From: Candidatus Omnitrophota bacterium | Lineage (GTDB): Bacteria; Ratteibacteria; UBA8468; B48-G9; DTJG01 | DNA: 64,000 nucleotides | Direction of reading: 5' to 3' | Assembly: GCA_023485205.1 (NCBI GenBank) | Contig: JAMCZX010000017.1 | Location: forward strand, 1-64,000 | Part shown: positions 21,900 to 42,817 of the stretch, piece by piece | Layout: every line of letters starts with the position of its first letter | Numbering within the stretch: the stretch's first letter is position 1 | Notes under the pieces: generated by a model | What the model was told of the DNA's origin: nothing | What the model saw: only the letters and a program-made list of their open reading frames with translations | The model's database searches: none | Translations under genes and position numbers: made by a program

Positions 21900-21927
21900 T
21901 TTCTTCTCCTTCCTATCCAAAGTTAGT

Positions 21928-22005: not shown

Positions 22006-22014
22006 TTTCCCATT

Positions 22015-24219
22015 TTACATAATGGGATCCATACTTAAAGCAGGATGTTTTTTCTCCTGTAAGAAAGGAAGAATCTCCTCTTCCGTGGAACCGATTGTTT
22101 CATCAGCAATCATATCTACTAAATCCGGTATCCCCATATCCTGTGCTCTTTTTTGAAGCCGCTCCATTATCTCTTCTTTTAACATTTTTGGCATCCATAC
22201 AAGCCGCTTCAGTCCATCCTCTGCATACAGGAATTTTGGTTGTGTAATGTTAAACTTTGCATGACCTAAAAAGCCAGGGGTTTGTTTTCCCCCGCCTATT
22301 GTCCCTGCAAGGGTGGAAAATTTCATCCCGCATGGGGTCTCTCCTTTAAATTCCCTGTTTACGGTCATGATACCGTTGCACAGGGGAAGAACCACTGCTA
22401 TACATTCACAGCACCCGCACGTTGTCATAGGGTCTACCATCAAACTGTAAATGCTGATATTTTCAACCGCGCCCTTACTTGCAGTATCTATAAATTTATT
22501 ACAGCCCTCCCATTTTCCATATTTTGCATCAATGACAGCACCCTTTTTTATGGGCTGATTTGGACCCTGGGGATTTATTTTGTGTGATGCCCTGCCATCA
22601 AGCCATGAAACTGCTCCACACAGCCCGGTTCTTTCCGGCGTTACGATACACACGTGGGATGGGGCAAACGACTGGCAAAGCGTGCAGGAGTAATACGTAT
22701 CAATGTCTTCATCCTTCATATCTGCCAATCTTTCATCCCTTATTGCCCATGTTTTTCTTGCTTTCTCAAGAATTTCCCTGACCTTTTCCTCTTCTGTATA
22801 TATTTTTACCTGGACCTTGTCAATAATGCTTGAAAAATCCTCATGAAACTTTCCCTGGATGGCAACGCCGAGATGTTTTAACTGTAATCCTTTTTCTTTT
22901 GCTTTTTGGGATAATCTTATCCAGATAATGTCTCTCTGACCAATATGCATTGCTCCATTTACATAGTTGACGTAATCATGTATACGTCTTTCAAGAATAG
23001 GTTCAAAATCCTCCTGCATTTCTCTTCCTGCAACCTCTGCAACGATACCAAACGGGACCAAACTTCCCTCAGGAAGAACGTCTACGTCAGGGCCAATAAC
23101 CTCAACCTTTCCATCTTCAACCTCATTAAGCGGCTTTGAAGTCGTCCATTCAAATGCCGGCGTTTTTGTCCCGCCCGCCTCCACGTATATGTCTTCCTTT
23201 CTTATTCTTTCACCTTCAAAAGCAGGGCCAAAAGGAACAGGAAGAGGAATTTTGACGACGGATACTTTTAATCCTCTCACCTCAACTGCTTTTGCTACGA
23301 GCCGGTCATAAGGAATACCTGAAACAACGTGTTCATAAGTGCAAACCCCTGTAGGAAGTATCTGCGGAATATGGGTATCCGCTATTGTTGGAAATCCAAA
23401 ATTTATGGCTCCTGCTGCAGTGGCATACCACTGCTCATCAACATGTCCAAGAGCAAGAACGAATGCAAATATTCTATCCTTGTTATATATAAGTATTCTC
23501 CTGTAATCCCCTGCCTCAATTCCTCCAAAACTCATTGCCGCCCTTACTGCAAAACCAAGTGAAAAAACAGCCTCGTATATATCAGGACCAAAAGGAACTA
23601 ATCTTACAGGCCAGCCAACCTGAACGTTTGCTTTTTTCAACTGCTCTGAAAATCTTTCTCCATTATGTGATGCGCACATAAAAACGTAAAGATTTTTTTC
23701 CTGCAGCTCCTGGGCGATTCTTGCTGCGGTTTTCTCGTCAGGGGCAGAGCCTGCTATAGCGGCAAATCCCGGTGCGGTTCCATCAACAAATTCTATGCCT
23801 CTTTTTCTCAAAATAATGTCATTTGCTGCTCCAAGCCATAATTTCTCATCTGTCGGGTCCTCTTCAGATAAATAAAAACCCGGCTCATTCAGATATTTTA
23901 CAGCCTCATACATCTCTTCAGCAAACAACGTTGCCATCCCGGCATCAAGTGTTGGGCCAAGATATGGAAGATGATAATTACGGGAAACAGGTTCCGGTAT
24001 GATTTTTTTACATATTTTAAACACTTTTTCCATATCCGCTAAATTTTTTACGGGTATGCCAAGAATACCATAAATTACAGGCAGGTAATACGCGGTTTCA
24101 GGAAATCCCACCTCCTGCTTACCGCCATATTTGTCCATTGCCTGTTTCCAGTATTTCTCAGACATATCAAGAATCTTATGTGCTCCATTGATTGCAGCAG
24201 AAGCAATTATTTTAGACAT
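22015..24219 (-). CDS. acsB: Acetyl-CoA synthase (CODH/ACS alpha subunit)
   Basis: Condenses CO, the CFeSP methyl group and CoA to acetyl-CoA at the nickel A-cluster. The 734 residues match the Moorella enzyme in length, so the N-terminal CODH-contact domain is present, unlike the shorter archaeal CdhC. The [4Fe-4S] ligands are C512, C515, C524 and C534 (SCTLCQSFAPSHVC...GLCG) and the distal nickel site is C601-G602-C603 in TTCGCCECIAV. All key residues are intact. It follows acsA by 33 bp. Confidence 0.96.
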   Translation of the reverse strand: MSKIIASAAINGAHKILDMSEKYWKQAMDKYGGKQEVGFPETAYYLPVIYGILGIPVKNLADMEKVFKICKKIIPEPVSRNYHLPYLGPTLDAGMATLFAEEMYEAVKYLNEPGFYLSEEDPTDEKLWLGAANDIILRKRGIEFVDGTAPGFAAIAGSAPDEKTAARIAQELQEKNLYVFMCASHNGERFSEQLKKANVQVGWPVRLVPFGPDIYEAVFSLGFAVRAAMSFGGIEAGDYRRILIYNKDRIFAFVLALGHVDEQWYATAAGAINFGFPTIADTHIPQILPTGVCTYEHVVSGIPYDRLVAKAVEVRGLKVSVVKIPLPVPFGPAFEGERIRKEDIYVEAGGTKTPAFEWTTSKPLNEVEDGKVEVIGPDVDVLPEGSLVPFGIVAEVAGREMQEDFEPILERRIHDYVNYVNGAMHIGQRDIIWIRLSQKAKEKGLQLKHLGVAIQGKFHEDFSSIIDKVQVKIYTEEEKVREILEKARKTWAIRDERLADMKDEDIDTYYSCTLCQSFAPSHVCIVTPERTGLCGAVSWLDGRASHKINPQGPNQPIKKGAVIDAKYGKWEGCNKFIDTASKGAVENISIYSLMVDPMTTCGCCECIAVVLPLCNGIMTVNREFKGETPCGMKFSTLAGTIGGGKQTPGFLGHAKFNITQPKFLYAEDGLKRLVWMPKMLKEEIMERLQKRAQDMGIPDLVDMIADETIGSTEEEILPFLQEKKHPALSMDPIM

Positions 24220-24252
24220 AGTAATTTCATCTCCTTAACATCATTATTGGTA

Positions 24253-26178
24253 TTATTCTAATTCCCTTCTCATAGCCATATCATACAAAACTCTTTCTCT
24301 TGCCTTGTCAATTCCGAGTTTTTTCCTTTTTTCATCAATGTGGTCTATCATTAATTTTGCCATTTTAACAGGGTCTGGCTCAAAAGCCCATTTCCCGCCT
24401 AATTCATTTTCAATGCCTTCAAATAAATATTTTGTCAGGTTCTTACTTCCAAGTGTAGGCCAGGTAACTCCAAAAACCGTAAAAACCCCGGATGCCACAA
24501 AATACTGGCCAATGGCAATCGCTTTTTCACTCATCCATTCAGGAGCAGCACCAGCAGCAGGAAGTTCAGAAATATCATCTCCAAGCCCGCCTTCTTTTAC
24601 CATTGCCGTTGCCGCTATAAGAATCCTTGAATTATCAACACATGAACCGAGATGTAAAACAGGAGGAATCCCTACAGCCTCGCAAACCTCCCTTAAACCG
24701 GGACCGCAATAGTCAAGTCCTTTCACAGGGTCCATCAATCCCGCCTTTGCAGTTGCTATTGCAGAGCAGCCTGTTTGTAAAACAAGCACGTCGTTTTTTA
24801 TAAGTTCCTTGACAAGAGTTAAATGATTTTCATCAGTTGTAATCTTGGGATTGTTACATCCAACGACTCCTGCAACACCCCGTATTTTCCCGTTAATGAT
24901 ATTATCATTCAATGGCCTGTATGATGCGCGGAATAGCCCTCCAAGGATATAGCTTATAGTCTCATGAGAAAATCCCGCAACAAGACTAACCTCTTCCTTT
25001 GGGATTGATACCTTTTCTTTTTTTCTGTTCTCAAAGTTTTCAATAGCCATATCCACAAGTTCTTTTGCTTTTTCAAGGGCATTTTCCTCGGTAAACTCTA
25101 CATGGGTTGCACCAGGCAGTTTTGCCTTGGGGGACGTTGTTATAATCTTTGTGTGGAAACAGGAAGCTACCATTGGAAGGGACTGCATAATACACTGGAT
25201 ATCCACAGTCATTATCTCAACCGCACCTGTTGTTATTGCCATTTCCTGGTTTAAGAAATTTCCAAGAATAGGGATACCATGTCTCATAAGAACCTCATTT
25301 GCAGTGCAGCATATACCACCGAGATTTATTCCTTTTGCCCCTTTTTGCCGGGCTTTATCAACAAATTCCGGCATATCAACAACAATTGCGAGCATTTCTG
25401 AAAGTAGCGGTTCATGCCCATGAACCACAATGTTTACGTATTCTTTGTCAAGAACACCAAGGTTGACTTTTCCCACCAGGGGCTGAGGGGTTCCAAAAAT
25501 AATATCCTGCAGTTCAGTAGCAATCATGGAGCCGCCCCATCCGTCAGAAAGAGAACATCTTGATGCCTGTCCCATTAAATGCTTATACTCCTGGTCTGTC
25601 CCCATAACTGTTCTTTCTATTGATTCTGAGATTTCCCGGTCAACTCCCCTTGGTTCTACTTTATATTTTTTCCATAGATTCTGTCTTTTTGCCGGCGCCA
25701 TTTTTAAAAAAGTCAGCCTACCTTCCTGCTGACCAAATTCAGACAGGGCTTTTTCTCCGAGTTCAAGGGCAATGTCTTCCGTTTTTTTGCCTGAAGTCTC
25801 TATTCCAAAAATTTTGCATAATTTGATTAGTTTATATGTATCCTTGATTTGATATCCCGGAGCCTCATTTTTGGCAATCTTTATGAGTGCTTCTGCAACT
25901 GACCTGCCATGCCCTGAATGTGCAGAAGAACCTGCCGCCACCATTCTTAAAAAATGACGGGCAGCGATTGTATCGGCATCTGCCCCACAAACTCCATATT
26001 GAAACTTACCTCCAGACCCAAATGGAGCTATTCTGCAAGGACCCATTGCACAAAAACGACAACAAAGTCCAAGCTGCCCGAATTTACACTGTGGCTGTTG
26101 CTTTTCAAGCCGTTCCCATACAAGTTCAAATCTTTCTCCTGATTTCATCGTATCCACCTGCTTTTGTTCTGTAGACAT
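24253..26178 (-). CDS. acsA: Carbon monoxide dehydrogenase (CODH/ACS beta subunit)
   Basis: Reduces CO2 to CO at the Ni-Fe-S C-cluster. The 641 residues are the usual size for the bacterial homodimeric CODH. The N-terminus has the D- and B-cluster cysteines (C31, C39, C40, C43, C48 in CKFGQLGLCCRFCAMGPC). C-cluster motifs include NLGGICCTANEVL, GVVGCNNPK, LQTGCSAIATAKAG and HLGSCVDNSR. Its place between acsD and acsB argues for the ACS-bound enzyme rather than a free CooS. It starts 1 bp after the acsD stop on the opposite side of a tight junction. Confidence 0.96.
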   Translation of the reverse strand: MSTEQKQVDTMKSGERFELVWERLEKQQPQCKFGQLGLCCRFCAMGPCRIAPFGSGGKFQYGVCGADADTIAARHFLRMVAAGSSAHSGHGRSVAEALIKIAKNEAPGYQIKDTYKLIKLCKIFGIETSGKKTEDIALELGEKALSEFGQQEGRLTFLKMAPAKRQNLWKKYKVEPRGVDREISESIERTVMGTDQEYKHLMGQASRCSLSDGWGGSMIATELQDIIFGTPQPLVGKVNLGVLDKEYVNIVVHGHEPLLSEMLAIVVDMPEFVDKARQKGAKGINLGGICCTANEVLMRHGIPILGNFLNQEMAITTGAVEIMTVDIQCIMQSLPMVASCFHTKIITTSPKAKLPGATHVEFTEENALEKAKELVDMAIENFENRKKEKVSIPKEEVSLVAGFSHETISYILGGLFRASYRPLNDNIINGKIRGVAGVVGCNNPKITTDENHLTLVKELIKNDVLVLQTGCSAIATAKAGLMDPVKGLDYCGPGLREVCEAVGIPPVLHLGSCVDNSRILIAATAMVKEGGLGDDISELPAAGAAPEWMSEKAIAIGQYFVASGVFTVFGVTWPTLGSKNLTKYLFEGIENELGGKWAFEPDPVKMAKLMIDHIDEKRKKLGIDKARERVLYDMAMRRELE

Positions 26179-26179
26179 T

Positions 26180-27130
26180 TTATTTACCCTCCATTATTTC
26201 TTCTATTATTCCATCCATTAACTGCACCGCTTTTGGATGTCGCATAACAAGTATGTCGGCTCCTGCTGAAGCAAGAAGAACCGCAGTAAGCGCCTCCATC
26301 AAGATACCTCTTTCCTCCTGTTTACCCATTCCGGGGAATTCATCAGAGGAAAGACCTGCCTCTTTTGTTTTCCATGTTTCCCTTCCAACATAGCATATCA
26401 TAGGAAAAGCAAGTTTATCATCCTGCTGGATAAGTCCCGCGATTCTATCTCTTTCCATCACAGAATACGTATATTCAATCCCGTAGCCAAGCCCTCCTGT
26501 TGTCGGGTCCATGATAATCTTGTTTTCGGGTACTCCAAGTTCAAGAAGAAGAATGTTTAATTGTTTTGCAAGATTTACGTCAACCGGAGAGGAAGCAAGT
26601 ATAACCTGTTTATAGGCAATACCTGCTGCACCGAGTTGTTTATAGTTTTTATCAATGACAGGACCTATTCCCACGTTTTTCCCGTCACAAACCTCTGCAA
26701 TGAGTTTTAAGGTTTCCGTATCCTTTTCAGGGTTATCACAACCCCAGAATAGAAGAGGAACGTCCACCTCTTTTATGAGATTTTCAACAATTTTGGCAAT
26801 ATCTGAAGCAGACCTGTTCATTCCGATGGGGTCTATGCTTGTGAGAGATATTGTGAGAAGTTTTGCAGAATATTCCTCCACACACTTTTTAGCCCAGCGG
26901 ACAGGGTCATTTAAAACAGACTGGAAAGGTTTTTTGCATACATCAGGCCATTCTTCAGGTGCAGAGTCCATAACTTCATAAGAGATTAAAGGCGGATGAG
27001 AAATTGGGCATTCAAACGTGTGAAAATTAAAACAGGTTTGTCCCCCGATTGTAACTGCCTTATTCCCTGTTCCGATTGTTACTTCCCTGATTTTACCCGT
27101 ATAATTAACCGATGGTATTTTAACTTCCAT
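26180..27130 (-). CDS. acsD: Corrinoid/iron-sulfur protein small subunit
   Basis: The beta (delta) subunit of the CFeSP, a TIM barrel that pairs with AcsC and caps the corrinoid. It has 316 residues. FHTFECPISHPPLISYEVMD, IMDPTTGGLGYGIEYTYSVMERDRI (in part) and LRHP-type ending VMRHPKAVQLM are family features. Start: ATG 27130 with GGAG just upstream; an in-frame ATG at 27142 overlaps that ribosome site. The same arrangement, with GGAGAAGAAAATG around the true start, is seen at acsC. Confidence 0.94.
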   Translation of the reverse strand: MEVKIPSVNYTGKIREVTIGTGNKAVTIGGQTCFNFHTFECPISHPPLISYEVMDSAPEEWPDVCKKPFQSVLNDPVRWAKKCVEEYSAKLLTISLTSIDPIGMNRSASDIAKIVENLIKEVDVPLLFWGCDNPEKDTETLKLIAEVCDGKNVGIGPVIDKNYKQLGAAGIAYKQVILASSPVDVNLAKQLNILLLELGVPENKIIMDPTTGGLGYGIEYTYSVMERDRIAGLIQQDDKLAFPMICYVGRETWKTKEAGLSSDEFPGMGKQEERGILMEALTAVLLASAGADILVMRHPKAVQLMDGIIEEIMEGK

Positions 27131-27153
27131 TTTCTTCTCCATGTTTGAGAGTA

Positions 27154-31348: not shown

Positions 31349-32482
31349 CTAAAATTTTTCTACCACCTCTATTATTTTTTCATAGTTTTTCAACGTCAGG
31401 TCTGAAAGAATTCTGCCATAAGGACATGCAGATGGCATAAGTACAAATCCTCTCCCCTCTCCTGCAGTACCCTCCTGCAATGCTTTTATAACTTTTTTTT
31501 CAAATTCCGGTTCCGGCAGATTTTCAATGTCGCTTACTTCCAAATTACCAAATAACGTTAAATTTTTACCATATTTATTTCTGACATATGAAAGCTCCAC
31601 GTCTCCCTGGGGCGGAGGTTCAATTGGGTCAAGACCCGTACAACCGGTTGTAATAATTCCACCAAGAATATCCTTAATCCTGCCATGACAGTGTATTCTT
31701 GGATATCCCCCGGATTTACGTATCAAGTCTATCAGCGGCTTATCATATTTAACCACATATTCAGTGAAAAAAGATGGAGGAAGATATGGGGGGGATGCAA
31801 ATTCAGGTCCATAAATACGCCATAATTTACCGGGAAGAACCCTGGCAATGGCTTCAATTCTGAAATAAAGGGCACTGAAAAATCTTTCAAGTAACTTATG
31901 AAACATATCAGGATAGGAAAAAGCAGTCATTATGTAATCCTGCATGGAAAAAAGTTCTGCTGCATTACAAAGCGGGTCAGAAGTATCAATCATGACAATA
32001 CCCGTATCTCCAAGTAACTCCTCTGTTTTTAATATCCCGGATATGTCCGGTTCTCCACCGGGTGGTGTTTCCGGCAGGTCAAGATATGTTTTAAAATCGT
32101 CCATATTTTTTAAAAGATGTTCCAATCTCCATGTTGTTCTTACGTCCATGTCCCGCCGGCTCATACTTCTTAAAATACGATTTCCTGCTTTTATCGTTAT
32201 AGTCGTAAATTCACTTTTTCCTTCAATCCTTGTATTTATTTCTGTAAACTCTTTCAGACTATCTTCAGGAGTATTTTTAAATGGAACTCCCCTCATAACG
32301 ATTCTGTCAGTTTTTTCTCTTGTTAAATTTAGCAATGGTTTCCATGAAGGATGAGAATAGATATTAAATGGGTCGGAGTTCTCAGGATTTTCGTCCAGTC
32401 CATTCAATTCATAAAAGGATACCGGGGGTCTGTCCACTGCCTCACCTTTGATTGAAGCCATTAACCTTTCTTGTCTGAACAT
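31349..32482 (-). CDS. UroD-superfamily protein, methyltransferase-like
   Basis: A UroD-fold protein of 377 residues. The N-terminal RLMASIKGEAVDRPPV is typical of the superfamily. RIHCHGRIKDILGGIITTGCTGLDPIEPPP has the H-x-H region equivalent to the metal site, with a further Cys in MPSACPYG near the end, as in the zinc-dependent corrinoid/CoM methyltransferases. It differs from the protein at 1840-2955, which has H-S-C-G, so the ligand set may differ. It follows the prenyl synthase gene by 2 bp at the end of the operon that begins with the regulators. Substrate unknown. Confidence 0.75.
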   Translation of the reverse strand: MFRQERLMASIKGEAVDRPPVSFYELNGLDENPENSDPFNIYSHPSWKPLLNLTREKTDRIVMRGVPFKNTPEDSLKEFTEINTRIEGKSEFTTITIKAGNRILRSMSRRDMDVRTTWRLEHLLKNMDDFKTYLDLPETPPGGEPDISGILKTEELLGDTGIVMIDTSDPLCNAAELFSMQDYIMTAFSYPDMFHKLLERFFSALYFRIEAIARVLPGKLWRIYGPEFASPPYLPPSFFTEYVVKYDKPLIDLIRKSGGYPRIHCHGRIKDILGGIITTGCTGLDPIEPPPQGDVELSYVRNKYGKNLTLFGNLEVSDIENLPEPEFEKKVIKALQEGTAGEGRGFVLMPSACPYGRILSDLTLKNYEKIIEVVEKF

Positions 32483-32484
32483 TT

Positions 32485-33531
32485 TCAGTTATTGAGAATA
32501 TCCATTGAATAGGTTTCCAGCATCTGCCTATAACCTGGTCTCATTCTTGAATCTGTATTTGCCAATAATGCTTTGTTAAGGTAATCGTCAATCTGGTTTT
32601 TAGCGTAATTTAATGCATCTGAGTCACGTATAATCCCGCATATCTTAAGCTGTTCGTTTTTAGTTATATTTTTTTTGGATATTATCTTTTTTATACAGGA
32701 CTTAACATTTAGACCGGATTTATTGTATGCACGCCATATAAGAATAGTCTTTTTGGATTCTTTTATATCGTTTAAATTGGATTTATACAAGCCCGGCTTT
32801 TTACTGAACATATCCGTAATGTCATCCTTAATCTGGAACGCCCTTCCCAAATATATACCGAATTTAAAAAGTTTATCTATGTCCTTTTTCCCGGCACCGG
32901 CAAGTATTGCACCTATTGTAAGAGGCGCAGAAAAAGTATAAATGGCAGTTTTTAAATCATATATCTTATAAATGTCATTCAGGGTGATTTTATCTATATT
33001 TTCAAGGCTTGAAATAATGTCAAGAAATTCCCCGTTTCCGGTGTAAACAGCCGCATCAACCAATTTTTTAAAGGCAATTTCCTTGCGACGGGCATCTTCC
33101 TTGACGGATAAGAATGAATACGTCCCAAGAGCATACATGATATCACCCATTATAATGGCAAGGTCATTGCCATTGAATTTAGTATTTTTATGTCTTGCAA
33201 CGTATTCATTTAAAATTCTATGCAATGAGGGTTTTCCTCTCCTGATGCTGGATTTATCTATGATGTCATCATGAACAAGTATGGAATTATGTAATAATTC
33301 CAATGACATTGCCGTCCTGTAGAGCCCATCCGGCTTTTTTTTAGTAAAACCTGAATATCCAAGAATAAACAGGACAGGCCTTATCCTTTTACCTTTCCTC
33401 AAGATAAAACCCTTGATATTATTTAATAATACAGGAGGAAATTTATTCAAGTGGTATGCCCGGCTTAAATCATTGAAATAGTTAACAAGCTCCATCTCCA
33501 CGCTCTTCTTTATTTCCGTAATCATAGCCAA
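32485..33531 (-). CDS. Trans-isoprenyl diphosphate synthase
   Basis: Builds a linear polyprenyl diphosphate for quinone, carotenoid or similar lipids. The 348 residues carry the first Asp-rich motif DDIID (88-92) in HNSILVHDDIIDKSSIRRG and the second, DDITD, in FQIKDDITDMF; the basic GKRIRPVLF precedes the first. Chain length cannot be set from this reading. Its start is 2 bp after the stop of the REC-acetyl-CoA synthetase gene. Confidence 0.9.
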   Translation of the reverse strand: MAMITEIKKSVEMELVNYFNDLSRAYHLNKFPPVLLNNIKGFILRKGKRIRPVLFILGYSGFTKKKPDGLYRTAMSLELLHNSILVHDDIIDKSSIRRGKPSLHRILNEYVARHKNTKFNGNDLAIIMGDIMYALGTYSFLSVKEDARRKEIAFKKLVDAAVYTGNGEFLDIISSLENIDKITLNDIYKIYDLKTAIYTFSAPLTIGAILAGAGKKDIDKLFKFGIYLGRAFQIKDDITDMFSKKPGLYKSNLNDIKESKKTILIWRAYNKSGLNVKSCIKKIISKKNITKNEQLKICGIIRDSDALNYAKNQIDDYLNKALLANTDSRMRPGYRQMLETYSMDILNN

Positions 33532-33533: not shown

Positions 33534-35930
33534 TTAATTTTCCCTCTCTTCATATTTTTTCTTTAATCCCTCTACAACGTTCGGGTCTGATAAAGTGGTG
33601 GTATCCCCGAGAACTTTACCTTCTGCAATATCCCGTAATAACCGGCGCATAATCTTGCCGCTGCGTGTCTTGGGAAGTTCTTTGGTAAAAATTATTTTTT
33701 CCGGCTTTGCAATAGAACCTATTTTTTTTACTACATGTTCTTTTAGCTCCTGTTCCTTCTGGAGAGAGGGGGTATTACCCTCTTTCAGAATAACAAAAGC
33801 AGCAATTGCCTGCCCCTTGATTTCATGATAAATTCCAACTACTGCTGATTCTGCCACACCGGAATGGTCCACTAAAGCGCTTTCCACCTCCATCGTGCTT
33901 ATCCTGTGTGCAGAGATGTTCATTACGTCATCCACCCTGCCTAACAGCCAGAAATATCCCTCTTCATCACGCCTGGCACCATCACCTGTAAAATAAGTTC
34001 CTTTGTTCCATTTTGACCAGTATTGTGAAACGTATCTTTCCGGGTCCCCGTATATGCCTCTTAACATGGCAGGCCAGGGTTTTTTGATTGCAAGGTATCC
34101 ACCGCCTACGTTGATTTTATTACCTTTTTCATCTAATATGTCCGCAACAATGCCGGGAAACGGTTTGGTAGCCGAACCAGGCTTTAAAGTAGTCAGACCT
34201 GGAAGCGGTGTTATAAGAATCATTCCCGTCTCAGTCTGCCACCACGTATCAACAACCGGACAGCGTTCCTGTCCGATATTTTTATAATACCACATCCATG
34301 CCTCCGGGTTTATTGGCTCTCCTACTGAGCCAAGCAGACGCAGTGAAGAAAGATTATGTTTTTCCGTCCATCCTGTTCCACACTTCATAAAAGCACGTAT
34401 TGCAGTAGGCGCAGTATAAAAAATCGTTACCCCATATTTTTCTATTATTGACCAGAATCTATCTATTTCAGGCCAATCCGGAGCACCTTCATACATTAAA
34501 ACTGTTGCTCCGCAGGATAATGGCCCGTAAACCACGTAACTATGCCCGGTTACCCATCCGATGTCTGCGCTGCACCAGTAAAGGTCATCATCTTTTATGT
34601 CAAAAACCCATTTTGTAGTGGCATATACACCTGTCAAATACCCGCCCGTAGTATGAATAATTCCTTTTGGCTTGCCCGTAGTTCCTGACGTATAAAGCGT
34701 ATAAAGAATATCCTCGCTATCCATTGGTTCCGGTCTGTAATAAACCGGAGCCCCATCCATCAACTGGTGCCACCAGTGGTCTCTTCCCTCTTTCATCGTA
34801 ATCGGAAAATCACTCCTGCTTCTTTGTACTACAACCACGTTTTTTATAGAGGGTGTTTTTGCCAGGGCATTATCTGATATGTGCTTAAGTGGAATGAATT
34901 TACCTCTGCGATATCCTCCGTCTGCCGTAATTAAAACCGTTGCCTGTGCATCGTTGATACGGTCAGCCAATGCCTCGGCACTGAACCCGCCAAAAACCAC
35001 GGAATGAATAGCTCCCAATCTGGCACAAGCAAGTAATGCCACGGGAAGTTCAGGAAGCATCGGCATGTAAATTATCACCCTGTCTCCTTTGCGTACGCCT
35101 AATTTATAAAGAACGTTCGTAAACTTGTTTACCTCCTGGTATAATTCCCAGTAGGTTAAAACACGCTGGTCCCCGGGCTCGCCTTCCCATATGATTGCCG
35201 CCTTATTACGTTTACCTGCATGTATATGTCTGTCAATACAGTTATAAGAAGCATTTAATCTTCCCCCTACAAACCATTTTGCATGAGGAGGATTCCATTC
35301 CAACACCTTATCCCACTTCCTGAACCAGTACAACTCCCCGGCAAAATTCTCCCAGAATTTTTCAGGGTTTTTATTTGCGGTCTCATAGATTGACTCATCT
35401 TTTATGTTTGCCTGGCTGACAAAATTGGATTTGGACGGGATCCGACGTTCCTCGTCTAACAAAACTGTCAGTTCACCTTTAATTTTTTCTTTATGCCGTT
35501 TTTCTTTTTTTACTTCAGTACAGGAAATCTGATTTACCTGATTTTCCATTGATTTAATAGTACTGACAATCTGTTTCTTCAGTTCATCATATCCTGCAGT
35601 CTTGGATACGTAAGTATCAAAATGCGGTTGAATTCCAATCTTTTGCATATATTGCATAAAAGAGAACTTATCTCCAAAAGCAGTTAAAAGAATCACGGGT
35701 ATCTTATTCAATTCCGGGTCATTTTTGACTTCCCTGCAAATGTCACTTCCATCAATACCAGGCAGCATTAAATCCAATAATATTATATCGGGCTTGTATT
35801 TCCGGATAGACTTAATTCCTTCAGTCCCGTCATAAGCAGTAAAAATCCGATATTTGTCTTCAAGAAACATCCTTGTTGTCTCAACAAAATCATGGTCATC
35901 ATCAATTAATACAATTGATTTCTTTTCCAT
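33534..35930 (-). CDS. Response-regulator receiver domain fused to AMP-forming acetyl-CoA synthetase
   Basis: One continuous 798-residue frame. Residues 1-125 are a receiver domain with all phosphorylation residues intact: acidic pair D10/D11, phospho-acceptor D53 (LLDLMLPG), T83 and K110. A charged linker (about 127-175) leads to a full-length acetyl-CoA synthetase: [35 protein letters not shown], the ATP loop [11 protein letters not shown] (about 413-423) and the C-terminal [11 protein letters not shown] with catalytic K759, the lysine that acetylation silences in Acs. GGAGG precedes the ATG, and no ribosome site precedes the internal Met at 128, so separate translation of the enzyme is unlikely. 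It activates acetate to acetyl-CoA, presumably under control of the kinase encoded 23 bp upstream. Confidence 0.9.
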
Positions 35931-35953
35931 TTATCCTCCTAAGAAAGTTTTAT

Positions 35954-37309
35954 TTAACTTGCAGGCACTGCAACCACCCTTGTCTGACAGGGTAAAAAAA
36001 AACTCGTACCTTTGCCAGGGATACTTTCCACCCGGATATTGCTCTTGTGTAATTTAAGAACCTCTTTAACTATGCTTAAACCGAGTCCTGTTCCCTGCTT
36101 ATCCATATCCTGGGCATTCCTGCTCCTGTAAAATTCATCAAATATTTTATTTATGTCAGAAGCGGGAATACCAATTCCCGTATCCCATATCTTTATGTGA
36201 AAACATCCTTTTTTGTCTGGTACGGACTTAACATGGATGCCTATTTTTCCATATGATGGAGTATACTTGATGGCATTATTCAAAAGATTTATAAACACCT
36301 CCTTAAGGGTTTCCTTGTTGGCATAAACAAAAATCTTCTCCATTGGAATTTCACAGGATAACGTTAATTTTTTATCTTCTATGAAAGGTTTATATTCCTC
36401 TATTACATTATTTATTATATCATTCAGGGGGAATTCCTCTTTTTTAAATTCCTCTGAAGCTCTTATTTTTGAAAGATGCAAAAGGTCTCTCACAAAATTA
36501 AGCAGGGACAAAGTTCTCCTGTCTGCCCTGCCGAGCATTTCTTTTGTTTTTTCTGTTATGTCCCCTGTAAACCCCTCCAATACAACTTTTATACAATTCT
36601 GTATCGCGGCAAGACCGGATTGTATGTCATGGGTAACTGTCAGAACGTATCGTGATTTTATCCTGTCCTGTTCTGCAAGCTGTTTGTTAGCAAGTGTCAA
36701 AGCCCGCTCTCTCTCTATTAATTTTTCACTGATACTGCTGGTTAAATAAACGGCTAAATACAGGGTACTTGCCATAGCACCAAACACCCCCCAGGTATAT
36801 ACCCTGCTGAAAATCAGAGTCTGTCCTTCTGAAATCAAACTTCCAATAGGGTAATATGGTATAACTTTCATGGACTCAAGAATAATCACAAAACCCAAAA
36901 TGCCCACTGCCAGAGTAGCCTGCATGTATGCATCCCTCTTAGGCAAAATAATGCTTGCGGTAATCATATGAAAGATGAAATAAAATATAAAAGGATTTTC
37001 AATTCCACCGGAAAAATAAAGTAAATACATGAGCATTATCAAATCAGTGGAAATCTGGATATTTGCGAACGTGTTTGCCCTTCCATGCCAGGTATCTGTT
37101 TCACTTGTTTTTTTTAATTTAGAGTGGTAAAAATAAAAAATGACGTTAAACAAAAAAAGTGCAGCAACACCTGCATATAAAAAATTAAAAGGCAGTTTAA
37201 TTTTAAGAATGAAAACACTTGCTGAGATAATCAAAAAAATGCCGATAACTGCCAGCCATCTTAATTTTATAAACCATCCCAAACGGATATTCAGTTCTCT
37301 TGCCGTCAT
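35954..37309 (-). CDS. Membrane histidine kinase
   Basis: A sensor kinase of 451 residues. Five to six hydrophobic segments fill residues 15-190 with short loops and no large periplasmic domain, so it probably senses a membrane or intracellular signal. HisKA has the phospho-acceptor H227 in VTHDIQSG. The HATPase domain has the N-box NLLNNAIKYT (341-350), DTGIG (376-380) and GTGLGLSIV. It lies 2 bp after a response regulator and 23 bp before the REC-acetyl-CoA synthetase, its likely output partners. Confidence 0.92.
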   Translation of the reverse strand: MTARELNIRLGWFIKLRWLAVIGIFLIISASVFILKIKLPFNFLYAGVAALFLFNVIFYFYHSKLKKTSETDTWHGRANTFANIQISTDLIMLMYLLYFSGGIENPFIFYFIFHMITASIILPKRDAYMQATLAVGILGFVIILESMKVIPYYPIGSLISEGQTLIFSRVYTWGVFGAMASTLYLAVYLTSSISEKLIERERALTLANKQLAEQDRIKSRYVLTVTHDIQSGLAAIQNCIKVVLEGFTGDITEKTKEMLGRADRRTLSLLNFVRDLLHLSKIRASEEFKKEEFPLNDIINNVIEEYKPFIEDKKLTLSCEIPMEKIFVYANKETLKEVFINLLNNAIKYTPSYGKIGIHVKSVPDKKGCFHIKIWDTGIGIPASDINKIFDEFYRSRNAQDMDKQGTGLGLSIVKEVLKLHKSNIRVESIPGKGTSFFLPCQTRVVAVPAS

Positions 37310-37311: not shown

Positions 37312-37758
37312 TTACGGGTTTTTTTCAGGCCAGTTAGACCATTTACTTTCTTTTTGGTTCAAAAGCAGTTTTACTTTTTCCACCAGTTCATCTGATTTGA
37401 CCGGTTTATTCAAAAAATCATCAACAGGCAGATATTCATTATCCGTTTTATCTGAAAAACCGAATTGCGGATATTCAACATTTATAGCAGTAAGCATTAA
37501 AACAGGGATTTTTGCCAAAGATTTATCCTGTTTCAATTTAAGACAAAAGTCAAAACCAAGTGTCTTATGTTCAGAGCCGAACATTACGTCAAGAATTATA
37601 AGGTCAGGTTTATCTTCTTTGATTTTTTGTAAGCCATTGTCAGGGTCAATGGCAGAAGTAATGGTGAAATTGTGGGCTTGAAGAATGATTTTCAGCGCTT
37701 CAATTATGTCAGTATCATCCTCAATAAGAATTATCTTCGGATTTTTTATTTCTTCCAT
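37312..37758 (-). CDS. Single-domain response regulator
   Basis: A stand-alone receiver protein of 148 residues with no output domain. Acidic E13/D14/D15, phospho-acceptor D57 (LIILDVMFG), a Thr in LMLTA and a Lys in FLNKP are present. AGGAG precedes the ATG at 37758; the frame extends to 37803 but without a ribosome site. Between ftsZ and the kinase gene, it could carry phosphate between proteins or act by contact. An insertion after the Asp loop (GSEHKTLG) and a long loop before the Lys make it unusual. Confidence 0.88.
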   Translation of the reverse strand: MEEIKNPKIILIEDDTDIIEALKIILQAHNFTITSAIDPDNGLQKIKEDKPDLIILDVMFGSEHKTLGFDFCLKLKQDKSLAKIPVLMLTAINVEYPQFGFSDKTDNEYLPVDDFLNKPVKSDELVEKVKLLLNQKESKWSNWPEKNP

Positions 37759-37771
37759 AGCGTTCTCCTGT

Positions 37772-37827
37772 AGTAAATATTCACTAAACAGTGTTTCCTC
37801 CAAAAAGACAATCCAAACTTATTTACT
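37772..37827. repeat. Intergenic repeat element (copy 5)
   Basis: Bounded by AGTAAATA (37772-37779) and TATTTACT (37820-37827). It contains a TATTCACTAAACAGTGTTTC module and then AAAGACAATCCAAACTTATT, the M1 arm shared with copies 2, 3 and 6. It fills the gap between ftsZ and the response regulator and includes part of the ftsZ stop codon. Confidence 0.75.
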
Positions 37828-38953
37828 ATTTATTATCATTTCCCTGTTGAGAACCAGGTTTTCTTCTCAATGAAGGTGGAATTTTATATTCCTCCTCTCT
37901 GGTCTCTTCCGTATTAAATATGCCTAATTCCGGTGGATTAATCTTTTGTTCAGCCTGCGTCTTTTTTTTGGGACTCCTGGATTCTTCTATGCCTGTTGCC
38001 ATAAGCGTTACGTTTGCCTCGTCATTTAGATTTTCATCAATTGACAATCCAAAAGCAACCTTGTTCAGAGAGGATATGTCCTGTATAGTCTGCATTGCTT
38101 CAGCAACGTCTGGAAGGCTTAAATCATGACTGCCTATAATACTTACAAGAATATTTTTGGCATCAGGAAGCTCGTGTTCCCCTAAAAGCGGGTCGGATAA
38201 AGCGTTTTTCAGGGCTTTTACCGCCTTTTTTTCTCCGTTTGCTTTTCCTATGCCGACAATGCCTTTTCCCCCGTTTTCAAGCACCCTTTTTATGTCCGTA
38301 AAGTCCAGGTCCATTATATGAGAAGGCTTGTTAATAAGGTCTGAAACAGAAGATATACACCTGCTCACTACTTCATCAACCCTTTTAAATGCCTCCATAA
38401 AAGGTGTATCCCTGTCAACTATTTCCTGTAATTTTTCATTAGGGATACAGATTAATGTATCCACAACATTTTTTAAGTTTTCATGTCCAAGTTGTGCATT
38501 TATATCTTTTTTTTCCCATTTAAAAGGTGTAGTGGCAATACCTATTACAAGACTGCCCAGGTCTTTTGCTATCTTTCCAATTACGGGTCCTGCACCGGTA
38601 CCGGTTCCGCCTCCAAGTCCCAAAACAAGGAAAAGTATGTGTGTATTTTTAAATAATTCAGATATTTTTCCCCTGTCTTCATTTGCCGCGAATTTTCCTT
38701 TTTCAGGGTCACAGCCTGCCCCGCCAACTCCACCGGTAATTTTTTCACCTATCTGAACCTTGTAAGGAACAGGAAGAAGATGTAAAGCCTGGGCATCTGT
38801 ATCTATACCAATAAAATCAATTCCATCAAAATTGGGGCCAACCCTGCCTACAATTTTTCCACCCCCGCCTCCAACACCGACAACCTTAAGTTTTATTGGT
38901 GTTACTTTACTATCTTCAAGCATTACTTTCATGTTTGTCATTTTAATTACCAT
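37826..38953 (-). CDS. ftsZ: Cell division GTPase FtsZ
   Basis: Polymerises into the Z ring. The 375 residues hold the nucleotide-binding core with VVGVGGGGGKIV and the tubulin signature GGGTGTGAGP (114-123), the T7 catalytic loop MDLDFTDIKRV, a short linker and a C-terminal IPPSLRRKP that matches the FtsA/ZipA-binding peptide. The start is ambiguous: ATG 38953 overlaps the ftsA stop by 7 bp, and in-frame ATGs follow at 38941, 38932 and 38923. The region before GVGGGG is longer than usual, so a later start is possible. Confidence 0.96.
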   Translation of the reverse strand: MVIKMTNMKVMLEDSKVTPIKLKVVGVGGGGGKIVGRVGPNFDGIDFIGIDTDAQALHLLPVPYKVQIGEKITGGVGGAGCDPEKGKFAANEDRGKISELFKNTHILFLVLGLGGGTGTGAGPVIGKIAKDLGSLVIGIATTPFKWEKKDINAQLGHENLKNVVDTLICIPNEKLQEIVDRDTPFMEAFKRVDEVVSRCISSVSDLINKPSHIMDLDFTDIKRVLENGGKGIVGIGKANGEKKAVKALKNALSDPLLGEHELPDAKNILVSIIGSHDLSLPDVAEAMQTIQDISSLNKVAFGLSIDENLNDEANVTLMATGIEESRSPKKKTQAEQKINPPELGIFNTEETREEEYKIPPSLRRKPGSQQGNDNK

Positions 38954-40203
38954 TTATCCCATATATCGGAAAATTTATTTTTTATGTTTGTTATTTTTTT
39001 TAAAAACGGGGCACTATGTTTTAATTTTTTTTCCCCGGGTTCTTTTAATGATAAAAGTAAAGTCCCAATACCGGAACTAAAAGCCGGTGTCTGATGTTGT
39101 TTTGGAAGCCCGGTGATTTTTTTTGAAATTCCAAGCCGTACGGGTTTTACAAAAATCTGCTCATTCATTTTTATCAGTCCTTTTAATAAAGAAGAACCTC
39201 CTGTAATTATAACACTTCCAATCTTTCTCGTGGAAAACTTGTGTTCCTTTTCAAGGAGCGCTTTTATTACGGAAAAAATATCATCCACTCTATCATAAAC
39301 TATTTCTGATATTTTACCAATAGATACTTCATTTTTCAATCTTCCTGAAGAATATGGAATTTCCACCTGTTTTTCAAGCGCATCAGATTTCTCTTCTTTC
39401 AGGATGTCAAAATTACACCATCCATAATTTTTTTTAAGCTCTTCTGCAATGGCAGGTGTCGTATTAAGAATCTGTGAAATATCTGAATCTATAAGACCTC
39501 CACCTAATACCAGTGAGTATGTTCCTACAAGATTTCCTGAAACGTAGAGTAAAAAATTTGTAGTCCCTTTCCCGAAATCAATAAGCAGACTTCCCAGCTG
39601 TTTCTCTTCATCGCTTAATAAAAGCTCAGCACAAGCCCATGAATGTGGAAAAATCTTATCAACCATGGAGCCTGATTTTTTAATACACTGTATAAAATTC
39701 TGCAAAGGGTTTGAAAGCGCAACGAGAACGTGTATTTTTGCCTCCAAAGAATTTCCGAACATACCCTCGGGATTTTTTTTGACATTGGTTTCCTTGTCTA
39801 TTACGTATTCCTGCGGGAACAGATTTAATATTTTCTGGTCAGGTTCTGCAGATATTTCCCCTGTTGCCGCTTTTATGATATTCTGAATATCCTCCTGTTC
39901 AATCTGGTTATTGGAAATTGTTGCTTCTCTGGATGTCAGGGACCCTTTAATAAATCCTCCCCCGATACCAATATTAACAAACTGGAGAGGCTTGTCTGTC
40001 TGGGTTTCAAGTTCTCTCATAATATCAGAAACGTACTGGGTAGTGCCTTCAAGGTCTATGACTTTTCCATTCTGTATAATCTCCGTTTCAGGATATACTA
40101 CATGGCTTCCTATAACCTCAACCTTGTTTTCTCTGCCCATACCAACAATTCCAAAAATCTTATTTGAACCCAAATCCAGGGCTACAACAATTTCTTCTCT
40201 CAT
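38947..40203 (-). CDS. ftsA: Cell division protein FtsA
   Basis: An actin-fold ATPase that ties FtsZ to the membrane. The 418 residues show the phosphate-1 loop VVALDLGSNKIFGIVG, the SHS2 1C domain (MRELETQTDKPLQFVNIGIG), phosphate-2 SLLIDFGKGTTNFLLY and the adenosine motif SVIITGGSSLLKGL. The C-terminus NIKNKFSDIWDKW is the amphipathic membrane-targeting helix. No clear ribosome site precedes the ATG, and a repeat element lies between it and ftsQ. Confidence 0.94.
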   Translation of the reverse strand: MREEIVVALDLGSNKIFGIVGMGRENKVEVIGSHVVYPETEIIQNGKVIDLEGTTQYVSDIMRELETQTDKPLQFVNIGIGGGFIKGSLTSREATISNNQIEQEDIQNIIKAATGEISAEPDQKILNLFPQEYVIDKETNVKKNPEGMFGNSLEAKIHVLVALSNPLQNFIQCIKKSGSMVDKIFPHSWACAELLLSDEEKQLGSLLIDFGKGTTNFLLYVSGNLVGTYSLVLGGGLIDSDISQILNTTPAIAEELKKNYGWCNFDILKEEKSDALEKQVEIPYSSGRLKNEVSIGKISEIVYDRVDDIFSVIKALLEKEHKFSTRKIGSVIITGGSSLLKGLIKMNEQIFVKPVRLGISKKITGLPKQHQTPAFSSGIGTLLLSLKEPGEKKLKHSAPFLKKITNIKNKFSDIWDKW

Positions 40204-40224
40204 TTTTTATACCAATAAAGTCTC

Positions 40225-40271
40225 AAAGACAATCCAAACTTATTTCAAACACCGTTCTACTTGAGTATTTA
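40225..40271. repeat. Intergenic repeat element (copy 6)
   Basis: AAAGACAATCCAAACTTATT followed by TCAAACACCGTTCTACTTGA and GTATTTA. This gives the M1 and M2 modules joined in one piece and fixes their order. It spans the ftsA-ftsQ gap. Confidence 0.75.
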
Positions 40272-40275
40272 TGTA

Positions 40276-41025
40276 TTACTTTTGCTTTTTTTCTACATAT
40301 GGCTGATTAAACCGAAGATCAATGTACTTAAATGGAAAATTTTCTTTTTTACATGTTTCAAGAACAATCTGCAATTGTTCAAATTTTCGCTTAAAGTTTT
40401 TGGGATACAAAAAAACATCACCTTCCCTGCCTGACATTTTAATTTTTTCAAGATTTTCAAGCGATACAGTATCAGCCTGGAACAAATTACCTATATTATA
40501 ATAATTATACCATCTTTCAATTTTTAAAAGTATCTTCAACTTTTCATCATCTGTAGATTTTTCACCTATAGAGCCGACCTGCATCCCTTTAACCACCCAT
40601 CCCTTAAAATTTGAATCAAATGGAAGAAAATAACCATCTTTATCCATTAAAGCGAATTTATCCCCATCAATCACTTCAAACAAGGGTATTCTCAGACTAA
40701 GATTAATTAATAACGTTCCGGGCAATATTTTTTTTAGACTGCAATTTTCTACAAAATAACATTTTTTTATAGTATTGTAAATGGGATTAAGGTCTAAAAA
40801 AAGTATATTTTCTGACATTACGTTACCGACGTATGCAGACATAAGAGGCTGATAGACAGCAGGTTCAACGACAATTTTTCGTACTTTAAAAATAGATAAA
40901 TGATGAAAATATTTTGGAACCATGATTCTTAAAAATACGAGTAAAAAAATTCCTGCAAGTGAGATGAAAATAAAAAAAGCCCTTTTCAACTTCTTTATTC
41001 TTTCCTGTTTTAACCTTTCCCGCAT
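40276..41025 (-). CDS. ftsQ: Cell division protein FtsQ
   Basis: A bitopic divisome protein of 249 residues. A basic cytoplasmic tail (RERLKQERIKKLKR) is followed by one membrane helix (FFIFISLAGIFLLVFLRI) and a periplasmic POTRA domain (LSIFKVRKIVVEP...SENILFLDLN). The beta domain includes LSLRIPLFEVIDGDKFALMD, matching the FtsQ pattern. Sequence alone is weakly diagnostic, but position between ddl and ftsA supports it. It overlaps ddl by 16 bp. Confidence 0.88.
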   Translation of the reverse strand: MRERLKQERIKKLKRAFFIFISLAGIFLLVFLRIMVPKYFHHLSIFKVRKIVVEPAVYQPLMSAYVGNVMSENILFLDLNPIYNTIKKCYFVENCSLKKILPGTLLINLSLRIPLFEVIDGDKFALMDKDGYFLPFDSNFKGWVVKGMQVGSIGEKSTDDEKLKILLKIERWYNYYNIGNLFQADTVSLENLEKIKMSGREGDVFLYPKNFKRKFEQLQIVLETCKKENFPFKYIDLRFNQPYVEKKQK

Positions 41026-41918
41026 TTTTCCACTCCTGAACGGATTAATTTTTCACATAGCCGTGTAAATGATATTCCTGCACGTTTTGCTGCATCAGGC
41101 AGAAGACTGATGTCTGTCAGTCCCGGTATCGTATTTACGTCAAGCACCCAGCACTTTCCATACCTGTCAATTATCATTTCCATTCTTGCAAATCCTTTAC
41201 ATTTAAGAATCTCATAGGTTTTAATGGCTATATTTTCAGCATTTTTCAAGGCTTTTACGGGTATTTCAGGAGGTATAACGTGAATACTCCCCCCTATTTT
41301 GTACTTTGCGATATAGTCATAGAATTTTCTTTTTGTCCGTATCTCAATGGCAGGCAGAACCTGGAGTTTTTCATTGCCGAGAATACCAATGGTTATTTCA
41401 GTTCCCTTTATAAATTTTTCAATAAAAGACTCCCTGTCAACTTTCCATGCAGTCCTGACAGCCTTTTTTAAAACTTCTTCAGATTCAACAATGGAAATCC
41501 CTATTGTTGAACCCGAGCTTGCAGGCTTTACCACGATAGGATATCCAAAAGGAATTTCAGGGGATAAATCATTAATTTCAATAAAATCCGGGGTGGGTAT
41601 ACCATAGGATAAAAGAAGTCTTTTTGAAATGATTTTATTCATACAGATTGCACTTGAAAGAACTGACGAGCCTGTATAAGGTAAACCAAACGTTTCAAGA
41701 AATCCCTGTATTATCCCGCTTTCACCTTTCCCCCCATGAAGAGCGATAAAAACAAAATCAGGCTTTGCAGAAATAAATTCTTTTATAAAATTTTTCCCGG
41801 ATGGGTCCAAAATGGAAACCTTATATTTTTTTTTAAGAGCATTAAACACAGATTTACCGGACATAAGAGAAATTTCTCTTTCAGGACTATCCCCGCCTGC
41901 AAGTATTACGATTTTCAT
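41010..41918 (-). CDS. ddl: D-alanine--D-alanine ligase
   Basis: Makes the D-Ala-D-Ala dipeptide for peptidoglycan. The 302 residues are an ATP-grasp ligase with AGGDSPEREISLMSG (N-terminal catalytic Glu), FIALHGGKGESGIIQG, VVKPASSGSTIGISIV and WVLDVNTIPGLTDISLLP near the end. GGAG lies upstream of ATG 41918; the extra TTG codon before it is not needed. The murB stop and this start overlap as TGATG. Confidence 0.95.
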   Translation of the reverse strand: MKIVILAGGDSPEREISLMSGKSVFNALKKKYKVSILDPSGKNFIKEFISAKPDFVFIALHGGKGESGIIQGFLETFGLPYTGSSVLSSAICMNKIISKRLLLSYGIPTPDFIEINDLSPEIPFGYPIVVKPASSGSTIGISIVESEEVLKKAVRTAWKVDRESFIEKFIKGTEITIGILGNEKLQVLPAIEIRTKRKFYDYIAKYKIGGSIHVIPPEIPVKALKNAENIAIKTYEILKCKGFARMEMIIDRYGKCWVLDVNTIPGLTDISLLPDAAKRAGISFTRLCEKLIRSGVEKCGKG

Positions 41919-42817
41919 CAAAAGTCTCCAATAAATTCTATTTCTGGTTCAAGAATTATACCATATTTACTGAAAATCTTTTCTTTTACATTCATGATAA
42001 GCTCATATACATCAGATGAATTTGCATTACCCGTATTTATAATAAAATTTGCATGTTTCTCTGATATTTCCACACCCCCGGTTTTTGTTCCCTTAAGTCC
42101 TGCATCCTCAATAAGTTTTCCTGCAAAGAATCCCGGTGGATTTTTAAAAATTGAACCTGCTGAGGGATGTTCAAGCGGCTGTATGTTCATACGGGTTTTC
42201 ATTATCTCCTTCATTTTTTGCTTTATTTCCCCACTATTTCCACGTTCAAGTTTAAAGATTGCTGAAACAATAAAGAATGCCTCTTCTTTTAATGAGGACA
42301 TCCTGTATCCGGTTATGATTTCAGAAACGTTTTTTTCAACCCATCCGCCCTTTTTGTCAAGAAAGTTTATTTTATCAGTTATTGAACTGATAAACAGGTC
42401 TTTTGTTCCGGCATTCATAATGATGGCTCCTCCAATAGAGCCGGGTATACCCGTAAGAAACTCCATGTTCTTTAGGTTGTTGTCCATGCAAAAGCTGAGG
42501 AACCCGCTTATTTTTACGCCCGATTCTGCATAAACGTTTTCATTTTCAAGGGAGAGCTTTGAGAAATTTTCCGTCATGGCAAGAATACCGTTATATCCTT
42601 TATCACTTATAAGAACGTTAGAGCCTCGTCCCAAAAATTTTACCGGGACATTATGTTGTTTTTCAAGATTATATAGAGTCTCTATATCCTTTTTATCCAG
42701 GGGAAATAAAAGGATTGATATCTTTCCTCCTGTCTTGAAACTTGTAATCTCTGAGGCAGGAAATTCAAAAAAGACTCTATCCTTGAAATTTTCTTTTAGC
42801 TCATCTTTTAATTCCAT
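41918..42817 (-). CDS. murB: UDP-N-acetylenolpyruvoylglucosamine reductase
   Basis: An FAD enzyme that reduces the enolpyruvyl group to give UDP-MurNAc. It has 299 residues. TSFKTGGKISILLFP and KFLGRGSNVLISDKGYNGI form the FAD domain; GIPGSIGGAIIMNAGT is the core signature; PSAGSIFKNPPG carries the catalytic Ser; the C-terminal EPEIEFIGDF holds the Glu. It begins the murB-ddl-ftsQ-ftsA-ftsZ run; murC and murG are not adjacent. Confidence 0.95.
   Translation of the reverse strand: MELKDELKENFKDRVFFEFPASEITSFKTGGKISILLFPLDKKDIETLYNLEKQHNVPVKFLGRGSNVLISDKGYNGILAMTENFSKLSLENENVYAESGVKISGFLSFCMDNNLKNMEFLTGIPGSIGGAIIMNAGTKDLFISSITDKINFLDKKGGWVEKNVSEIITGYRMSSLKEEAFFIVSAIFKLERGNSGEIKQKMKEIMKTRMNIQPLEHPSAGSIFKNPPGFFAGKLIEDAGLKGTKTGGVEISEKHANFIINTGNANSSDVYELIMNVKEKIFSKYGIILEPEIEFIGDF

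Follow-up and report, generated by a model that had tools for sequence, protein, structure and literature searches.

What does a two-component receiver do when it shares a polypeptide with a metabolic enzyme, and could the enzyme then answer directly to a kinase? This question is raised by a gene in the 64,000-nucleotide stretch of DNA analysed here (the window, to which all coordinates refer), which comes from an uncultured anaerobic bacterium. The gene encodes a receiver (REC) in one chain with an AMP-forming acetyl-CoA synthetase (Acs). The original prediction described an uninterrupted frame with an intact receiver (D10/D11, D53, T83, K110) and a full synthetase with its ATP loop and K759, and proposed that acetate activation is controlled by a phosphorelay. 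The fusion gene and its parts are as follows.

33534-35930, minus strand: REC-Acs fusion gene, 798 aa, a single ATG-started frame without an internal stop
35935..35940, minus strand: Shine-Dalgarno sequence AGGAGG of the fusion gene, 4 nt ahead of the ATG (read directly)
35556..35930, minus strand: REC, residues 1-125 (Pfam Response_reg at residues 6-121, E 3.8e-19)
35772-35774, minus strand: codon of the phospho-acceptor D53, within REC
35475..35555, minus strand: linker, residues 126-152, charged and little conserved in the alignment of fusions
33534..35474, minus strand: Acs domain, residues 153-798 (TIGR02188 and 2p20 alignment)

The predicted continuity of the frame across both domains was borne out. 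The receiver proved intact by both the residue check and Pfam, with D10, D11, D53, T83, Y107 and K110 all present. Based on Pfam, the enzyme part consists of ACAS_N (180-231), AMP-binding (239-625) and AMP-binding_C (681-759), and the fusion scores 983.5 bits against the NCBIfam acetate--CoA ligase model TIGR02188, whose curated cut-off is 724.95. Solved Acs chains align with the enzyme part; in the alignment with 2p20, where positions were counted by hand, K759 corresponds to K609 and W564 to W414 of the acetate pocket. We take this pocket to comprise V310, T311, V386 and W414, and K609 to be the catalytic lysine. The ATP loop at 413 and the residues V460, T461, V536, W564 and K759 are present in the window protein, and together with the TIGR02188 score this alignment confirms a full synthetase. 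Position 460 is I in two of five fusions, while the other named ATP-loop, pocket and lysine positions are invariant in 5/5.

Three in-frame ATG/TTG codons lie at residues 120-200 (128, 157 and 200), and a separate REC-less product from an internal start appears unlikely because none of them has an AGGAGG. Some such product would still be possible, since weaker purine runs precede TTG 157 (AAAGGTG) and TTG 200 (GGGGAG).

The fusion is not confined to the window. A protein search seeded with residues 1-240 gave 1400 proteins at E <= 0.001, and among the 120 of these that were listed, Response_reg and Acs domains were combined in three: the window protein, P0002 and P0003, the latter two with 60% and 50% identity to the window protein over residues 1-165. 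A profile built from four fusions, with which 8000 candidates were scored, added P0121 among the 120 matches listed. In the 35 genomes of the phylum to which genome G001 belongs, an Acs match at E <= 1e-60 was found in two, G012 and G017; the former is a full-length fusion, 88% identical, and the latter is an Acs without REC (P0005). A sixth related REC, in G001, shows 70% identity over residues 1-105 and ends at a contig edge, so that its Acs part falls outside the sequence. The original prediction had staked itself on the fusion not being absent from all relatives, and this concern does not hold, with five distinct full-length fusions at hand (window, G012, P0002, P0003 and P0121). A frameshift, a misassembly or a chance joining was considered as the source of the architecture and rejected, because homologous fusions exist on other contigs and align end to end. 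No independent fusions in other groups were seen among the matches listed (120 of 1400 and 120 of 8000). Their absence cannot be claimed, because the word search misses known fusions: seeded with the REC of P0121, it returned 25 proteins and missed the known other ones. Among the best 5 matches in each of the phage and plasmid collections (107 and 3840 further records), no REC was found and the matches begin at residue 154 at the earliest, so these read as Acs without REC.

The receiver itself is well kept. D10, D11 and D53 occur in 6/6 RECs, position 83 is T or S in 6/6, and Y107 and K110 are retained in all five of the six that are long enough to include them. Two features set the fused RECs apart. 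The motif GD[KN]xSF follows T83 in 6/6 fusion-type RECs, whereas no other row of the comparison has it (83 of these rows span 85 aa or more), and the proline after K110 is missing in all five fusions reaching it and present in 34/35 other printed rows. Because of both features the fused RECs look specialised. GD[KN]xSF is a candidate coupling surface, and since the proline is missing, the behaviour of the REC may be atypical.

Between the window and G012, dN/dS was 0.117 for REC, 1.07 for the linker and 0.040 for Acs (Nei-Gojobori with Jukes-Cantor; the values are approximate, the synonymous distances being 0.5-1.2 and the linker 27 codons long). On the same footing, the neighbouring kinase gave 0.16 for its sensor part and 0.11 for its catalytic part, the response regulator RR1 0.14 and the polyprenyl synthetase 0.15. 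By these values REC and Acs are under purifying constraint and the linker is free, and the whole therefore resembles a working two-domain protein. Could REC have been joined by accident and tolerated without function? The closeness of REC-less Acs proteins in the tree (P0005 and P0122) would fit this, yet we regard it as very improbable in view of the dN/dS of REC, the active-site residues kept in six sequences, including P0002 and P0003, and the joint occurrence of REC, kinase and RR1.

The neighbours of the fusion gene lie on one strand, in the order murB, D-Ala ligase ... ftsA, ftsZ, RR1, kinase, REC-Acs, PPS and URO-D.

37826-42817, minus strand, as the cassette: murB, D-Ala ligase, probable ftsQ (name tentative), ftsA and ftsZ, directly upstream of the cassette
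37312..37803, minus strand: RR1, a single-domain response regulator of up to 163 aa, with Pfam Response_reg alone
35954..37309, minus strand: membrane sensor histidine kinase, 451 aa (Pfam HATPase_c and 6TM_PilS)
32485..33531, minus strand: polyprenyl diphosphate synthase (PPS; Pfam polyprenyl_synt, E 9.2e-49); G012 has a relative at 70% in the corresponding position
31349-32482, minus strand, as the cassette: URO-D family protein, directly after PPS

As listed, the gaps are 22 bp between ftsZ and RR1, 2 bp between RR1 and the kinase, 23 bp between the kinase and REC-Acs, and 2 bp each for REC-Acs to PPS and PPS to URO-D. The predicted kinase gene 23 bp upstream of the fusion, with a second receiver protein ahead of it, is thus in place; PPS, the RegB-type motif of the kinase and the CODH/ACS cluster described below were no part of the original prediction. 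Comparison with G012 makes ATG at 37758 the likelier start of RR1, and for PPS the ATG at 33525 is to be preferred over the TTG of the gene list; if the starts follow G012, the gap from ftsZ to RR1 becomes about 67 bp and that from REC-Acs to PPS about 8 bp. The ftsZ product scores 291 bits against the TIGR00065 cut-off of 295.

The cassette RR1-kinase-REC-Acs-PPS is common to the window and G012. Its flanks differ: ftsZ adjoins it in the window, whereas an MFS-type transporter and a glutamyl-tRNA-reductase-like gene (named by eye) do so in G012, where the cassette does not adjoin division or wall genes. In G001 the order is MenA-like UbiA, kinase, RR1, polyprenyl synthetase and REC, the UbiA gene overlapping the kinase by 4 bp. 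The polyprenyl_synt protein beside this REC has 270 aa and 27% identity, and is perhaps a different gene from the PPS of the window. Linkage to a histidine kinase therefore extends to the relatives, as a kinase gene shares the cassette with REC in G012 and G001 too. A full-length kinase relative (E <= 1e-35) was found in G012 and G001 alone among the 35 genomes of the phylum, the same two that carry a fusion-type REC, although this match rests on two genomes that may be incomplete. A third kinase match, in G034, is limited to the catalytic part.

RR1 has relatives of 79% identity in G012 and 62% in G001, and its phosphorylation residues are present by eye. Based on Pfam, no DNA-binding domain was found in RR1 or REC-Acs, which hold the only response-regulator domains of the cassette, and Acs is therefore its only recognisable output. 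The Pfam scan also gave no HPt domain or hybrid kinase in the cassette.

In the kinase, HATPase_c is clear and 6TM_PilS scores 29.2 bits (cut-off 27), whereas HisKA, with H227 in the box HDIQS, reaches 24.6 bits and lies just under its cut-off of 26.9. Against the ActS/PrrB/RegB model NF033792 the kinase scores 117 bits, below the cut-off of 350, with a match over residues 4-427 of 451. One further element of its sensor part was located.

36989..37009, minus strand: GGIENPF, kinase residues 101-107, fitting the RegB ubiquinone motif GGXXNPF

GGXXNPF is described as the quinone-binding heptapeptide of RegB in the available portions of PMC10525716 and PMC8191878. Six of the seven kinases compared carry GGIENPF (window, G012, G001 and the Chloroflexota loci L009, L018 and L045), and Chloroflexota L017 has GGIENLF. 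A cysteine 12 residues past the phospho-His is common to the three cassette kinases; in RegB, the redox-box Cys265 lies about 40 residues after the phospho-His.

Based on the above results, we suggest that REC-Acs is a response regulator with an enzyme as its output, set by the adjacent kinase; as a whole we consider this reading somewhat probable. The RegB-like membrane kinase would autophosphorylate on H227, and the phosphoryl group would pass to D53 of REC-Acs and to RR1. Phosphorylated REC would change shape via T83/Y107 and the beta4-alpha4 surface, and this change would alter the turnover or assembly of Acs across the free linker, acting either as a brake or as an accelerator. Direct phospho-control is the best-supported possibility, because REC is intact and constrained, the cassette is conserved and there is no DNA-binding output. 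Kinase control of Acs, as originally predicted, accordingly stands as a reading of the sequence, but the word phosphorelay was too strong, since a single His-to-Asp step to each receiver would suffice where neither HPt domain nor hybrid kinase was seen. Counting against the proposal are the HisKA score under its cut-off, the 27% identity of the polyprenyl synthetase in G001, and the presence of two receivers for one kinase, by which RR1 might be the true output.

The same cassette admits two other roles for REC. It might be a docking device, holding Acs at the membrane kinase or at RR1 and so localising acetate activation, with catalysis unchanged by phosphorylation. A free linker fits a tether and the kinase does carry a membrane sensor domain; however, pure docking would not need the kept phosphorylation residues, and the motif specific to fused RECs belongs to the switch region, directly following T83, so that we find this role quite unlikely. 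Alternatively, the signal might run backwards: Acs would do the sensing, the dephosphorylation of REC would be altered by the ligand or turnover state of Acs, and REC-Acs would serve as a metabolite-sensitive phosphate sink that sets the phosphorylation of RR1, whose target would lie elsewhere. One kinase with two receivers, and the conservation of RR1 at 79% and 62%, are consistent with this. RR1 has, however, no recognisable output domain or known target here, and such a reverse flow is not known for another REC-enzyme fusion; both the sensing by Acs and the sink it would create have, in our estimate, a low probability. Control of Acs through phosphorylated REC remains the reading that we favour.

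What signal would the kinase read? Probably the kinase responds to the redox state of a membrane quinone or of another prenylated carrier; this is the least certain step of the proposal. A prenyl link would be supported by the polyprenyl synthetase present in all three cassettes and by the UbiA gene overlapping the kinase in G001. Evidence against a quinone comes from the kinase score under the RegB cut-off and from the 35 genomes of the phylum, in which neither MqnA/MqnD of the futalosine route nor MenD above its cut-off was found (0/35 each); sub-cut-off MenD matches occur in 34/35 genomes but equally in 14/14 controls, seven of which score above the cut-off. The MenA-like UbiA proteins of G001 and G012 score under their cut-offs, and none was found in G017. 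In the available part of an Omnitrophota survey, some groups are reported to have quinone genes and another to lack them (PMC10066038).

The metabolic surroundings give the proposed control a possible purpose. Two further features of the window are relevant.

20559-27142, minus strand, as the cassette: CODH/acetyl-CoA synthase cluster with two CdhD-type subunits, CdhC/ACS beta and CODH
19502-20422: pterin-binding protein, just beyond the CODH/ACS cluster

A CbiA/ParA-type ATPase extends the cluster to 28085. DUF3786 and the pterin-binding protein together occupy 18922-20422, just beyond it. Because this cluster lies in the window, the organism has Wood-Ljungdahl core genes. CdhC occurs in 12/35 genomes of the phylum, in G012 and not in G001 or G017, and acetate kinase occurs in 28/35, including all three. 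The ATP-consuming activation of acetate would thus be gated in a cell with the Wood-Ljungdahl pathway and, as seen in relatives, probably acetate kinase. Fast control of Acs would be needed because such a cell can make acetate with an energy gain and activate it at an energy cost, and it would be useful because Acs left unchecked would fuel a futile cycle.

Acetyl phosphate can serve receivers as a phosphoryl donor, and REC might then be charged mainly by the acetyl phosphate of acetate kinase and phosphotransacetylase. Flux through this low-affinity route would set the activity of the high-affinity Acs, with the kinase mainly a phosphatase or fine-tuner. The breadth of acetate kinase in the phylum, and the fact that the partner enzyme Acs itself belongs to acetate metabolism, speak for such charging; it leaves unexplained why the kinase and RR1 accompany REC in three genomes. 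We judge it unlikely as the main source of phosphate, and the dependent roles of flux and kinase equally so, and retain the kinase as the favoured donor.

As for the lysine switch of Acs, SIR2 was found in 10/35 genomes, with none in G012 or G017 and, in G001, a match of 38 positions where a contig ends. That a REC switch has replaced the lysine-acetylation switch is at most suggested by this. The URO-D family protein after PPS has a weak, sub-cut-off similarity to MtaA/CmuA methyltransferases, and a C1 link through it is possible. Elsewhere in the window, an ORF resembling a TraD/TraG-type coupling protein (54467-55663, plus strand) is possibly a mobile remnant. A promoter scan of the window gave 45 sites against 38.0 in shuffles (sd 6.5) and was uninformative; terminator-like sites, which were set aside, numbered 21 against 10.1 (sd 3.7), and an Rfam scan of the window gave no match.

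The history of the fusion was approached with an Acs tree of 55 sequences, comprising the five fusions with REC removed and 50 REC-less proteins. The five fusions fall into one clade (100/99) with P0005 of G017 and P0122, both REC-less; P0005 is nested inside the fusions (97/91). The simplest reading of this topology would be one fusion event with later losses of REC. In G017, a CRISPR array at L092:51-382, with repeats spaced 72-73 bp and the last repeat cut, runs straight into the linker-coding 5' end of the gene for P0005. The junction may be an insertion or a misassembly, and we treat the loss of REC in G017 as unsafe because the start of P0005 abuts the cut repeat and may be a misjoin. 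In the 1.1 Mb of G017, which may be incomplete, there was no kinase relative at E <= 1e-35, no RR1 at E <= 1e-15 and no close REC, the best match being 34%.

Relatives of the receiver were collected as 80 loci kept out of 120 confirmed. Of the 17 loci that rank best behind the G001 piece (L002-L018), 16 have a methylene-THF reductase (MTHFR) homologue within 6 kb (tblastn E <= 1e-5, with three queries drawn from L002, L009 and L017 themselves); the 17 come mainly from two groups, Desulfobulbales-type bacteria and Chloroflexota, and are not independent. The exception is L008, on a 5.8-kb contig. By the same search, 2 of the 62 remaining loci (L019-L080) have such a neighbour. Pfam confirmed the reductase in the three loci scanned (L002, L009 and L017). 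Receiver-only proteins occur at L002 and L012, and L016 encodes a double receiver. A kinase homologous to the sensor part of the window kinase is present at four loci besides L001 (L009, L017, L018 and L045); at three of these four, MTHFR is close by.

Unfused receivers and kinases near MTHFR (MetF) were observed in Chloroflexota (L002, L009 and L017) and in Desulfobulbales-type bacteria (L003, L005, L007 and L012), with MetV-like (Pfam, L009 only) and HdrA-like (by eye) neighbours. They form a candidate regulatory class for the methyl branch of the Wood-Ljungdahl pathway. L009:5176-7044, between the MetV-like and MetF genes, encodes a kinase whose RegB-like sensor is preceded by an N-terminal cyclic-nucleotide-binding domain. 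These gene neighbourhoods suggest that a lineage of receivers and kinases goes with genes of the acetyl-CoA pathway, and REC-Acs would be its covalent version. By a Rosetta-stone argument from REC-Acs, targets are suggested for the unfused receivers beside Wood-Ljungdahl genes. In the REC tree, which was built by a quick method on 129 columns, has SH-aLRT as its only support measure and contains many long branches, the fusions group at 94. Descent of the fused REC from MetF-linked receivers was also considered, but this tree does not single out the nearest unfused receivers. The label 'metF_linked' of the tree was set by eye, ahead of the tblastn count, on 18 rows, including L008 and without L026, whereas the tblastn count has L026 and not L008.

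How does REC-Acs compare with known systems? According to section 14 of PMC5847659 (citing Galperin 2006 and 2010), response regulators with a metabolic enzyme as partner domain form a recognised class, whose phyletic ranges are narrow. Like the enzymatic-output response regulators treated there, REC-Acs has receiver and enzyme in one chain, a narrow range and no DNA binding. Its acidic pair, phospho-Asp, Thr/Ser and Lys are intact and its conserved enzyme domain is complete. REC-Acs is thus, on its domain composition, an Acs variant of this published class. The original prediction held that the architecture had not been described; no description of an Acs-receiver fusion was found in the open-access papers searched, mostly at title and abstract level, and an earlier mention elsewhere is possible, but novelty does not extend to fusions of receivers with metabolic enzymes as such (PMC5847659, same section).

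Two-component control of acetate activation by Acs is shared with CrbS/CrbR, as described in the available portions of PMC5715377 and PMC5436829. According to the same portions, CrbR controls acs transcription and CrbS has an SLC5 transporter sensor, whereas here the enzyme itself is the regulator. Features of the CrbS/R type are absent from the cassette, in which the kinase sensor is 6TM_PilS rather than SLC5/STAC and the regulators are without a DNA-binding domain. Acs is also controlled by lysine acetylation at K609 through Pat/CobB. This control is likewise post-translational and its target lysine is kept as K759, although the switch itself differs from REC. RegB/RegA (PrrB/PrrA, ActS/ActR) shares the 6TM-type sensor, GGXXNPF, HisKA and HATPase_c, as far as the available portions of PMC8191878 and PMC10525716 describe it. 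Unlike in RegB/RegA, the kinase here scores below the family cut-off, its partner is an enzyme and both regulators are without a DNA-binding domain. RegA is a DNA-binding regulator. FilI/FilR1/FilR2 of Methanosaeta harundinacea likewise has one kinase and two receivers, one of them receiver-only, tied to acs; FilR1 binds acs promoters, and a receiver fused to Acs is not described for this system in the available portions of PMC3991700.

A wider possibility, which we hold to be conceivable but doubtful, is that these proteins belong to an unrecognised two-component class acting directly on acetyl-CoA/Wood-Ljungdahl enzymes. In it, a RegB-like membrane kinase would read a quinone or prenyl carrier and set Acs in cis without transcription. 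One-carbon enzymes would be set in trans, by way of the sister receivers that stand unfused next to MetF in Dehalococcoidia, other Chloroflexota and Desulfobulbales-type bacteria.

Acs is the entry of acetate into central metabolism, and its known control is mainly by transcription and lysine acetylation. If the proposed reading is true, a receiver-controlled Acs would be a third, fast mode of control, by which the cell adjusts a central metabolic enzyme directly rather than through genes. It would offer an example of two-component output on core carbon metabolism in anaerobes.
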